A DNA stretch of 64,000 nt from Promethearchaeota archaeon (GTDB lineage Archaea > Asgardarchaeota > Lokiarchaeia > Helarchaeales > RDOG01), in NCBI GenBank assembly GCA_011365055.1, contig RDOG01000006.1, positions 209,895 to 273,894 on the forward strand, in the 5' to 3' direction. The position numbers were made by a program, and so were the translations under genes. Under the pieces are notes generated by a model, which did no database searches, had not been told where the DNA came from, and saw only the letters and a list, made by a program, of their open reading frames with translations. This document shows, piece after piece, positions 18,115 through 31,181 of the stretch; the stretch's first letter is position 1; each line of letters opens with the position of its first letter.

Positions 18115-18229
18115 GCGGAGGTTTCCAAGTCAGGTCAAAGGAGAAATAATAAGAGATACTTATTTTTCCTGAGCAGGACTCAGAATCCTGTAGCATAGGC
18201 TTTCGTGGGTTCAAATCCCACCCTCCGCA
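18115..18229 (+). tRNA. tRNA-Leu (CAG) with non-canonical intron
   Basis: The acceptor stem pairs GCGGAGG (18115-18121) with CCTCCGC (18222-18228), with discriminator A at 18229 and no encoded CCA. The anticodon stem CAGGA/TCCTG (18174-18178, 18186-18190) encloses the intact loop CTCAGAA with anticodon CAG at 18181-18183. A 14-base variable arm (18191-18204) and the T-arm GTGGG-TTCAAAT-CCCAC follow, as expected for a class II tRNA-Leu. Between the D-stem 3' strand GGA (18140-18142) and the anticodon stem there are 30 extra bases, so an intron interrupts position 26-27 rather than the usual 37/38 site. Confidence 0.93.
18144..18173 (+). other. 30-nt BHB-like intron in tRNA-Leu
   Basis: Removal of 30 nt gives the standard GGA-G-CAGGA junction. 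GAG is repeated at both boundaries (18141-18143 and 18171-18173), so four registers give the same tRNA. In the chosen register, a central helix AGG/CCU with one mismatch separates the bulges AG^A and AG^C. The inner hairpin has 2 bp, one U-U mismatch, 6 bp and a 5-nt loop (18154-18158). The outer helix is weak. The same 9-5-9 layout occurs in the HAD intron at 18873-18902. Confidence 0.75.
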
Positions 18230-18957
18230 TTATAAATTTTTAAAATATTACAAATTTCAGTTAGGTTTTCAATAACATAATCAGGTTTAACGCTTAACTC
18301 GTGTTTTGTATTATGCTCTCTTAATATAAAGATCGTATTTATTTTTGCGTTTTTACCAGCTAATATATCTAATTCGGTGTCTCCAATAAAAAAAGTATTT
18401 TTTTTATTAATTTTAATCTTTTTTAATGCAAGTTCGATGCTTTTTGGATTGGGTTTTGCAATTTTTTGTTGTTGTGTGCCTAAAAATAACAAGATATCAA
18501 AAAAATTTTCCGATAGATTCAACTTTTTTAATTCCATTTGTGCAATTTTAGCGGGGGTATTGCTAATAATTCCCATTTTTATGTTTTTATATCTTTTTAA
18601 ATTTTCTAATATTTTTAAGGTATCAGGATATAAAAAACAAGTACCTTGATCAATCATTTTAACTCTTTCTTGATAATCCCTCTGATCAAAAGTATCCCAA
18701 AACTCTTTTATGTTAATTATTCCCCATCTTTTTAGAAATTTATCGAAATTTCTCCCTGATTTCCAAAAATTAGAAATTTCTTTCTCATTTAATTCCTTAT
18801 TTGTTAGCTCCTTTACTACTTGTTGTAACATTTCATTTAGAATTTTAAAAAAATCCTTAGGAACATGAACGATTTTACTTACTAATTAACGAAATTAGAA
18901 ATGTGTACCGTCCAAATCAAAGAGGATTCCAAATCTTTTTTTAAGAAAATCATTCAT
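18211..18957 (-). CDS. HAD-family phosphatase, interrupted by a 30-nt intron
   Basis: The gene starts at ATG 18957 (overlapping the cdc48 stop as ATGA) and codes FGILFDLDGT, the nucleophile motif of HAD hydrolases. It then meets two in-frame TAA codons (18895-18897 and 18886-18888). Removing 18873-18902 gives FDLDGTLVHVPKDFF and continues into the open frame that includes motif II (GIISNT), the motif III lysine (AKPNPKS) and motif IV (FFIGDTELDILAG). The spliced product has 238 residues. If unspliced, only a 206-residue piece from the internal ATG at 18831, lacking the nucleophile, could be made. The 3' end overlaps the tRNA-Leu 3' half by 19 bases on the other strand. Substrate unknown. Confidence 0.82.
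18873..18902 (-). other. 30-nt bulge-helix-bulge intron in HAD gene
   Basis: Reading the minus strand, the outer exon helix pairs UGGACG with CGUUCA (6 bp, one G-U). The central helix pairs UAC with GUA plus a G-A mismatch. The bulges are AC^A (5' site) and AA^U (3' site). The inner hairpin has 2 bp, a U-U mismatch, 6 bp (CUAAUU/AAUUAG) and a 5-nt loop. Cutting between bulge bases 2 and 3 removes exactly 30 nt and creates codon CTC, giving DLDGTLV. Both in-frame stops lie in the intron. Confidence 0.85.
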
Positions 18958-28965: not shown

Positions 28966-29035
28966 AATTTTTATTTGTATAAAACAATATAAACAAAAAT
29001 TATTAAAATTCGCAAAATCTAACAGGTAGAAAAAT

Positions 29036-31181
29036 ATGCGTTTCCATCAAATTAATGACGTTTTAGAAATAATGCATAAATTAGAAAATGTAAGAAATGT
29101 TGGAATTATTGCTCATATAGACCATGGAAAAACAACAATAACAGATTCTTTACTCGCTAAAGCAGGTCTAATTTCCTCAAATCTTGCAGGTTCATTAAGA
29201 GCACTCGACTTTTTAGAAGAAGAGCAAAAAAGAGGTATTACAATTAAAGCTGCTAATATTTCTCTCTTTTATGAATTTGAAAAATCTAATTATCTAATAA
29301 ATTTAATTGATACTCCAGGCCATTAAAAATAGATTTGAACTATTTTTGAGCTAAGTGGATTTATCTCCAAACGTTACTCGTTCTTTGAGAGCAGTTGATG
29401 GTGCTTTAATTGTAATTGATGCTGTTGAAGAAATTAAAGTGCAAACTGAATCTGTTTTAAAAATGGCATTAAAAGAATTGGTAAAACCTGTTTTATTCAT
29501 AAATAAAATTGATAGATTAATTAATGAACTTAAATTGGATTCAATAGAAATCCAAAAAAAATTAGAAAATATCATAAGTAATTTTAATAATTTAATTGAA
29601 ATTTATTGTGCGAATCAATTTAAGGAAGATTGGAAAATAAATCCAATTTTGGGAAATGTTGGTTTTGGATCAGCTATTTTTCCCAACTGGGGATTTACAT
29701 ATAACATTTTAAAGAAAAATAAAATTACTTTTAATGACATTATAAAAGCTTATAAGAAGAATGAAGTGGATAAAATTCATAATTTAATTCCATTATCCAT
29801 ATGTTTATTAAATTTATTTACTAATCATTTGCCAAATCCATCTAATGCTCAAACTTACAAACTTAGTTCTATTATTGATCTCGAATTGAATTCAAAAATG
29901 AATGAATTCATAAAAAAGTGTGATGAAAATAATCCATTAATATTAAATGTTTTTAACTCAGTTTATGATAGTCATTTAAACAAATATGCAATTGGGAGAA
30001 TTTATTCAGGTAAAATTAAAAAAAATAGAGTTATTTTTAATATAAATATACAGAAAGAACAAAAAATAAGAAATTTAAGTTTATTTATGGGATCTAAAAA
30101 GATTCAAGTTGACGAGATTCCTGCAGGAAATATCGTTGCAATAGGTGGATTGAAAGAAATAAAAATTGGCGACACGATAACTGATCTTGAATCAAAAGAT
30201 TTGATGTCTCAATTAAAAAAAATTGAATATTTTTCTGAACCTGTAATGACAGTTGCTATAGAGCCTATTCATCCTCAACAATTAAATGAAATGATTAAAT
30301 TCTTGATGATTTTAAATGAAAATGATCCAAATTTTGAGTTAACAATTCATAAAGATTCAGGGGAAATTTTAGTTTCTGGTATGGGGATGTTACATTTAGA
30401 ATTAATTTGTAATGATTTAAAAAGAAATAACATAGAAGCCATAATTTCTGATCCTATAATTATATATAGAGAAATGATTTCGAAAAAAAGTCCAATTTGC
30501 GAAGCTTTTTTTGAAAATAATAATTTTATACGTATAAAAATAGAACCGAATATTCAAATTAATAAAGATACTCATTATGTTGTTTATAAAGATAAATATA
30601 ACAATACTATTGAAAATAAATCTCAAAGAAAGCTCTCTCAAAATTTTATAGAACAAATAATTAAAGGAATTAAAATTGGATTAAAAGCAGGTCCATTATG
30701 TGATGAACCAATTATGAATCTAAAATTTATTTTTCTAGATTATGAATTTAATACACATATAGAAAATTTTGAAGAAAAATTAATGTTATGTGCAAAGAGA
30801 TCTTTATTTGGTTCTTTTTTATTATCAAAGCCAATGTTATATCAACCAATTTATAAAATAGAAATAGAAACTTCTGAAGAAAATATAGGAAATATTACTA
30901 CTATACTATCAAAAAATAAAGCAAAAATTGATAATATTATTTCTAGAGGTTATAATTCTAAGGTAATAGCTTATATATCCGTTAAAAATTCAATAAATTT
31001 CTCTAAAAATTTAAGGAATTTAACTTCAGGTAAAAGTACTTGGCAAATGTTATTTTCTCATTGGGAAGAAATTCAGGAAAAAGATCAATCTAAAATTATT
31101 TCGAATATTAGGTTAAATAAAGGAAGAAAAATTGAGATTCCTGATCCTGAAGTATTTGTAAAAGTTATATCTAAAGAATAA
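29036..31181 (+). CDS. EF-2 paralogue, interrupted by a 31-nt intron
   Basis: Exon 1 (29036-29323) codes 96 residues with G1 AHIDHGKTT (26-34), the switch I RGITIKAAN and the G3 start DTPGH. Exon 2 (29355-31181) resumes with VDLSPNVTRSLRAVDGALIV, G4 NKID, and domains II-V, for about 704 residues in total. Unspliced, the gene ends at TAA 29324 and the frame differs by one. The DAIHRG region that carries the diphthamide histidine in EF-2 is missing; the matching stretch reads HIENFEEKLMLCAKRSLFG. This is therefore probably the aEF-2 paralogue known from Asgards rather than the main EF-2. Confidence 0.85.
29324..29354 (+). other. 31-nt bulge-helix-bulge intron in EF-2 paralogue
   Basis: The outer exon helix UCCA/UGGA pairs 29314-29317 with 29356-29359. 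The central helix is GGCC (29318-29321) with G-(A)-GCU (29348-29352, one bulged A or one mismatch). The bulges are AU^U and AA^G. The inner helix AAAAATAG/CTATTTTT is a perfect 8 bp with a 7-nt loop. Cutting between bulge bases 2 and 3 joins CAT to GTG, restoring DTPGH-VD and the frame. Confidence 0.85.

Follow-up and report, generated by a model that had tools for sequence, protein, structure and literature searches.

Compact bulge-helix-bulge introns predicted in tRNA and protein genes of an Asgard archaeon and at recurrent sites of archaeal EF-2 genes

In Crenarchaeota, pre-mRNA introns with a bulge-helix-bulge (BHB)-like fold interrupt the protein gene cbf5 and are removed by the splicing endonuclease EndA (Watanabe 2002; Yokobori 2009, PMC2738675). 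According to the available part of the latter account, the intron lies within the catalytic-aspartate codon, an invariant motif, and occurs in Desulfurococcales and Sulfolobales, with tabulated lengths of 19 to 31 nucleotides (nt), and in no Thermoproteales, further mRNA introns being predicted but unconfirmed. Also, HVO_1309 of Haloferax carries a BHB intron in its 5'-untranslated region, an EndA substrate in mRNA shown in vivo and in vitro, and the accessible part of this 2020 report names cbf5 as the sole other reported mRNA BHB intron (PMC7714728). Here, we describe four short inserts in a tRNA-Leu, a tRNA-Gly, a HAD hydrolase and an EF-2-family GTPase gene, all on a 64,000-nt stretch of contig RDOG01000006.1 from a Helarchaeales archaeon (the window), together with their counterparts in other archaea. 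Comparison of the sequences makes it highly probable that these inserts are introns, likely spliced by the tRNA pathway.

Like the cbf5 intron, the inserts in protein genes are BHB-like and fall in invariant motifs; unlike cbf5, a single gene in the part of the literature cited above, they affect eight sites of EF-2-family genes across two phyla, as well as HAD and RNase Z genes. Moreover, HVO_1309 has a leader intron, whereas the inserts described here lie in coding sequence and their cleavage by EndA is predicted. For tRNA genes, the consulted section of a review (PMC4090602) of Fujishima 2010 describes non-canonical introns of Thermoproteales with large-scale transposition and look-alikes at different sites, by a mechanism called unknown. 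The window shares with them short BHB introns at non-canonical tRNA positions; that account concerns tRNA only, whereas the look-alike pair found here is in mRNA (genome G117, below) and the window's own introns are not alike. Introns are also present in 92-95% of the tRNA genes of Atabeyarchaeia and Freyarchaeia, often at non-canonical positions, and the accessible part of that account mentions no mRNA intron (PMC11291895), unlike the situation here. In the open-licence PMC literature, subscription papers being outside the scope, no description of a BHB intron in EF-2 or in any Asgard mRNA was found. The kind of intron is already known, from cbf5 mRNA and from tRNA, and what is new would be its hosts and a recurrent, compact and possibly mobile variant.

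Four inserts and their conservation in relatives

The original prediction had claimed inserts of 30, 30, 30 and 31 nt in tRNA-Leu, tRNA-Gly, HAD and EF-2 with one architecture across tRNA and mRNA. On rechecking the coordinates the lengths hold (Table 1), and the common architecture is supported: the plan of 1 nt, a 9-position strand, a 5-nt loop, a second 9-position strand, a 4-nt central strand and 2 nt (1+9+5+9+4+2) fits tRNA-Leu, tRNA-Gly and HAD, and the inner hairpins of HAD and tRNA-Leu have in common 2 bp, a U-U mismatch and 6 bp, as had been proposed. The EF-2 insert departs from this plan by an 8-bp helix, a 7-nt loop, an extra G and a C.A mismatch in the central helix, which has three of four pairs, the outer helix having four of five. 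With the BHB defined as a central helix of 4 bp flanked by two bulges of 3 nt each at the exon-intron borders, tRNA-Gly conforms fully, and HAD, tRNA-Leu and EF-2 show one mismatch each. As regards the strict form (hBHBh'), in which the inner and outer helices are stable, the outer helix has 5/5 pairs in tRNA-Gly and HAD and four of five in EF-2, and is poor in tRNA-Leu. HAD and tRNA-Gly are near-perfect BHBs and tRNA-Leu and EF-2 relaxed ones.

Removal of the inserts yields a full cloverleaf in tRNA-Leu(CAG), the T arm CCGGG-TTCAAAT-CCCGG in tRNA-Gly(CCC), motif I (FDLDGT^LVHVPKDFF) in HAD and the G3 motif (DTPGH^VDLSPNVTRS) in EF-2. In an Rfam search of the window only tRNA-Leu reached the gathering score and no group I or group II ribozyme core was found, the inserts being 30-31 nt long. 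ARAGORN misfolds tRNA-Gly, placing the gene at 22806-22881. The 3' end of the HAD open reading frame (ORF) overlaps the opposite-strand tRNA-Leu gene by 19 nt (18211-18229).

Table 1. Interrupted genes of the window, their predicted introns and the uninterrupted RNase Z gene (a caret marks an exon junction)
Feature	Positions	Strand	Remarks
tRNA-Leu(CAG) gene with intron	18115..18229	+	Rfam tRNA, 37.6 bits across the full span, intron included; cloverleaf once 30 nt are removed
tRNA-Leu intron, 30 nt	18144..18173	+	Near position 26/27, where the D arm meets the anticodon arm; BHB relaxed, with 3/4 pairs in the central helix and a poor outer helix
HAD hydrolase exon 2	18211..18872	-	ORF 18211-18831 matches Pfam HAD_2 (E 7.2e-23) from profile position 20
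HAD intron, 30 nt	18873..18902	-	Two in-frame stops; BHB score 34 and frame joining; same site in G085
HAD hydrolase exon 1	18903..18957	-	MNDFLKKRFGILFDLDGT, phase 1; intron removal gives DLDGT^LVHVP
tRNA-Gly(CCC) gene with intron	22777..22879	-	Read from sequence; recovered by T-loop intron scan
tRNA-Gly intron, 30 nt	22791..22820	-	T-loop (59/60); BHB central 4/4 and outer 5/5 pairs; same place in G083 and G085
EF-2-family GTPase exon 1 (up to DTPGH)	29036..29323	+	Pfam GTP_EFTU, profile 1-79
EF-2 intron, 31 nt	29324..29354	+	Site A, separating a His codon from a Val codon; BHB imperfect; site also occupied in G085, G086 and G160
EF-2-family GTPase exon 2 (from VDLSPNV)	29355..31181	+	Pfam GTP_EFTU, profile 82-170, and EFG domains; TIGR00490 aEF-2, 419.6 bits (cut-off 738.45)
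RNase Z, uninterrupted (empty site of the G085 intron, DCGE^G)	33669..34574	-	Pfam; 43% identity to the spliced G085 protein over 300 aligned positions

The same breaks are met in relatives. All six nearest homologues of the EF-2 protein (P0002-P0007; metagenomic, 604-606 amino acids (aa), 62-74% identity) have the predicted start M/V-DLSPNV, which is the start of the window's exon 2, and all six nearest homologues of HAD (P0242-P0247, 57-67% identity) are without DLDGT, a motif present in the next three (P0248-P0250, 42-47% identity). At the DNA level, the Asgard genome G085 carries inserts at both the EF-2 and the HAD sites, and G086 has the EF-2 insert and an intact HAD gene. Because the nearest homologues lack the same N-terminal part and G085 is interrupted at both sites, the inserts are not errors. 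The T-loop insert of tRNA-Gly is found in G083 and G085 and is absent from G086; in G094, 29 extra nt stand at this place (read by eye). The contig carrying the window is 273,894 bases long. The CDC48 protein of the window is 89% identical to one named as Helarchaeota, and this identity, together with the EF-2 tree below, points to an Asgard archaeon.

Other tRNA genes of G085 are also interrupted. The tRNA-Gly adjoining EF-2 (L238, reverse strand near 416; contig C6, about 79.3 kb) seemingly has two introns, in the T-loop (31 nt) and near the anticodon arm, and tRNA-Leu(CAG) and tRNA-Leu(TAG) (L237 and L238; C6, about 49.8 and 72.4 kb) are interrupted in the T-loop by 25 and 19 nt. The intron of the window's tRNA-Leu(CAG) is at another position than the T-loop intron of its G085 namesake.

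A third protein gene is interrupted in G085, where RNase Z contains a 29-nt BHB insert at DCGE^GTQ. No break at this site was seen in any other genome among the 118 of 227 with a match (G188 starts late, at a contig edge), and this intron looks like a recent gain.

The EF-2 census and exon-intron co-variation

Of 227 Asgard genomes at least 18, and of 200 Thermoproteota genomes at least 10, have EF-2-family genes with inserts of this kind (25-39 nt), at eight sites in all. The total of at least 29 introns in 28 genomes is a lower bound, the later re-listing having covered 80 genomes and left out G017, G020, G028, G032, G223 and G224. Each of the 29, once removed, leaves an open EF-2 frame, and each has four of four pairs in the central helix, and with the window's intron included the first bulge base is A on both sides in 30/30.

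In Asgard genomes, site A (GH^VD) is occupied in G085, G086 and G160; site B (RG^IT) in G067, G068, G069 and G071; site C (HVD^F) in G075, G077 and G078; site D (the Lys codon of HGK) in G103 and G104; and site G (TDSD^DEEQ or alike) in G106, G108, G115, G117, G128 and G137. Two sites carry introns in distant lineages, since Thermoproteota G265 is interrupted at the same Lys codon as site D, one base away, and site E is shared by seven Thermoproteota genomes (AH^VD) and a different EF-2 paralogue in Asgard G117 (AH^ID). The other Thermoproteota sites are those of G273 (IRN^IG) and G339 (KTT^TSD). Seven introns, six at site G and the one at site E of G117, have exactly 30 nt in the 1+9+5+9+4+2 plan.

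Several candidates were discarded. Thermoproteota failed as an intron-free control, and among the 12 Thermoproteota places fetched G278 is a gap of N and G330 has no such insert. The apparent long intron of G227 EF-2 (L117:859-3624) is in fact a P-loop intein, HGK^CVSGDS...FFVHN^TTL (Pfam Intein_splicing, E 1.4e-26; TIGR01445); the P-loop codons that hold it carry introns in other archaea. G150 EF-2 (L128) has a single in-frame TAG at LIREL*LTDEQ with no insert and was left out of the count, G036 has one TAA and no insert, and G016 and G123 start late at contig ends. At site C, the junction GHV^NF was ruled out, since the BHB cut gives GHVD^F and restores the usual Asp. A contig scan with the window's EF-2 exon 2 returned no relative, and with CDC48 as the query it returned archaea and bacteria in general, with a Lokiarchaeal centre.

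In an EF-2 tree (FastTree, 55 sequences, 621 columns), the window, P0002-P0007, G085 and G086 form one group (0.971). The predicted EF-2 intron of the window is old on this comparison, being shared with G085 and G086 and presumably with the six metagenomic relatives. Because the third carrier, G160, groups with the uninterrupted G080-G082 (1.0), site A has probably either been invaded on two occasions or suffered many losses.

Across seven sites (EF-2 A-E, HAD and tRNA-Gly) the central helix is paired in 98 of 100 cells, and six of its 28 columns have changed on both sides, for example from GGTC:GACC to GGCC:GGCT, from GAGG:CCTC to GGGG:CCCC and from ATGG:CCAT to ACGG:CTGT. In the five such columns that lie in protein genes, the exon changes are synonymous (Gly, Arg, His, Ala and Gly codons, read by eye).

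Convergence, copying and the shared plan

We lean towards convergence as the source of the shared 30-nt plan, in which EndA would fix the bulges and the central helix and selection for compactness the hairpin of about 9 bp. The likeness among the window's four introns is at chance level against pair-preserving shuffles (overall p = 0.60), the Thermoproteota EF-2 introns agree in size and bulges while their hairpins are unrelated, and G085 and the window have sites in common but not hairpin sequence. Two observations speak against it: introns at two sites of G117 are alike, and introns at position 37/38 of the anticodon loop in G085 and G086 measure 15-65 nt, which shows that a length of 30 nt is not imposed by the enzyme. 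The seven G085 introns also show no overall likeness (p = 0.17), with single pairs down to 0.01 among 21. The common origin suggested for the window's four is consequently not borne out as it was put forward, although the shuffles could also miss such an origin, because same-site introns from distant genomes are mostly unlike too (eight comparisons, p 0.04-0.94).

In the proposed mechanism, the compact plan (1 nt, a helix of about 9 bp, a short loop, a 4-nt strand that pairs with the exon upstream of it, 2 nt) most likely comes close to the smallest intron that EndA accepts. New introns would enter exon sequences that already give half of the signal, namely four bases able to pair, then A and one further base, and this pre-supplied half is proposed to be the reason for repeated insertion at the same EF-2 codons.

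The more cautious reading is convergence on a compact form; mobility is a live, bolder one, which we put forward tentatively. The introns of about 30 nt could be miniature mobile elements of RNA origin, whose hairpin is copied among mRNA and tRNA sites (the likely route being reverse splicing via EndA and RtcB and, after it, templated repair or reverse transcription), with the 4-nt strand matched anew to each exon, and which re-enter the same EF-2 proto-splice sites in separate lineages of two phyla. In G117, the hairpins at sites E and G agree at 16/23 positions (p = 0.0005, the lowest value that 2000 shuffles can give), and the 4-nt strands, GCGT and CTGA, are each matched to their own exon. 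The site-E hairpin also resembles four of the five other site-G hairpins (p 0.003-0.01; G106, p = 0.14). These look-alikes at two sites make it likely that, in at least this one genome, a hairpin was copied from one EF-2 site to another and its 4-nt strand fitted to the new exon.

Moreover, in the 1.19 Mb of G085 that were scanned (out of about 5.8 Mb), non-canonical introns were found in seven genes, six of which (HAD, two tRNA-Leu, RNase Z, tRNA-Gly and EF-2) lie in one 50-kb stretch of contig C6, a clustering matched by none of 200,000 random placements; this figure has to be read knowing that the search for HAD, EF-2 and tRNA-Gly was prompted by the window, that tRNA genes cluster and that other mRNA introns may be missed. 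If the introns are mobile, local copying would explain the cluster. The spreading envisaged by the original prediction is therefore supported elsewhere, by the G117 look-alikes, the RNase Z intron observed in G085 alone and this 50-kb cluster, and not for the window's four.

It is improbable that these four are one intron recently spread between tRNA and mRNA. Their common plan and 11-kb neighbourhood fit such a spread, as does the closeness of the window's tRNA-Leu hairpin to site-G hairpins of EF-2 in G128 (17/23, p = 0.006) and G137 (p = 0.014), the best of 16 comparisons. Against it, the likeness among the four stays within that of the shuffles, and the EF-2, HAD and tRNA-Gly sites are occupied in other genomes and hence old.

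Splicing machinery and the case for splicing

Excision and ligation in the cell would proceed by cutting of the BHB introns from precursor tRNA and mRNA, likely by an (alpha-beta)2 EndA, followed by sealing, likely by RtcB ligase. Two EndA-family genes per genome were found in 12/12 Asgard genomes examined, with open frames of 184-226 aa; among the ten of 24 whose sequences were inspected, six are alpha (GIDH motif present) and four beta (GIDH absent). Relatives thus have a catalytic and a structural subunit as distinct proteins, each of about 200 aa, as in an (alpha-beta)2 enzyme. The alpha subunit of G086 matches best 3p1z_B (E 5.2e-48), presumably of Aeropyrum, ungapped across an extra loop, 'KPLGIRKPKNAEF', which we take to be the crenarchaeal specificity loop. 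RtcB is present in eight of nine Asgard genomes examined. The relaxed endonuclease of the original prediction is hence backed by a two-subunit EndA in relatives, and we infer EndA and RtcB for the window's own genome.

A BHB-like fold alone is no evidence, because a scan of both strands of the window, at 25% G+C, gave 312 such folds scoring at least 27 (150 and 162). Five matches in the window also join reading frames, HAD being the sole one above 30 and EF-2 being missed because its BHB is imperfect. What is above chance is the combination of the fold with a restored gene and conservation in relatives.

A number of results weigh against splicing or weaken its support. In the scanned part of G085, BHB matches that join frames at a score of at least 30 numbered 15, against 15, 9, 5 and 13 for four decoy geometries used as controls; with no excess over the decoys, the structure scan was rejected as proof, and the intron case therefore rests on homology. 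The six EF-2 and six HAD metagenomic relatives were compared as proteins only, so that their introns are presumed. The BHBs of EF-2 and tRNA-Leu in the window are imperfect, and most EF-2 introns are relaxed BHBs, because their outer helices are weak (four of five pairs at site A, none to three of five at all other sites). Splice points were chosen by pairing, which inflates the pairing counts, and the wider co-variation figures (168/172 cells paired; of 50 columns, seven changed on both sides, five on one side and three with a mismatch) include only those outer columns with at least half of their cells paired. Finally, the intron-bearing EF-2 copy need not be essential, because the EF-2 of the window's clade is without the HRG motif, presumably part of the diphthamide loop and kept in G160, G075-G078 and the Thermoproteota copies, and because a second gene of the EF-2 family in G085 is uninterrupted.

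Only EF-2, HAD and RNase Z had homology support among the G085 matches. An unproven candidate BHB at L281:6156-6191 (C3, about 625.6 kb; score 36) joins frames of 26 and 626 codons.

Pseudogenes or sequencing errors are a very improbable account of the protein genes: frame breaks and stops in the DNA and the second EF-2-family gene of G085 would fit, but the breaks are kept in all the nearest homologues of each protein, both flanking exons are conserved and exon and intron co-vary through synonymous changes. Equally hard to credit is a gap skipped by the ribosome or a gene read as two proteins; exon 2 at site A does start with GTG, a possible start codon, but sites B-H have no in-frame start codon there, the GTPase domain would be split between its motifs, the same elements are found in tRNAs, which are not translated, and pairing of the intron with the upstream exon is needless for bypass.

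Elsewhere in the window, 35054-35974 encodes a Cdc6-like ATPase with no match to a winged-helix domain, followed by one stop and an in-frame helix-turn-helix-like ORF, and 43361-47014 is an ORF of 1217 aa with no Pfam match at 1e-5.

That genes called frameshifted may be spliced, as had been suggested, is upheld by the RNase Z intron of G085 and the EF-2 introns of 28 further genomes, and on sequence grounds genes that look broken in these lineages are likely spliced. Because gene callers start proteins after the intron, this class of mRNA introns has likely been missed or recorded as frameshifts. If the introns are spliced, EF-2, a core translation factor, would need tRNA-type mRNA splicing in many archaea, including lineages near the archaeal ancestor of eukaryotes. 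Moreover, recurrent entry at the same codons, together with empty sites in close relatives, would make these genes a natural system for intron gain independent of a spliceosome.

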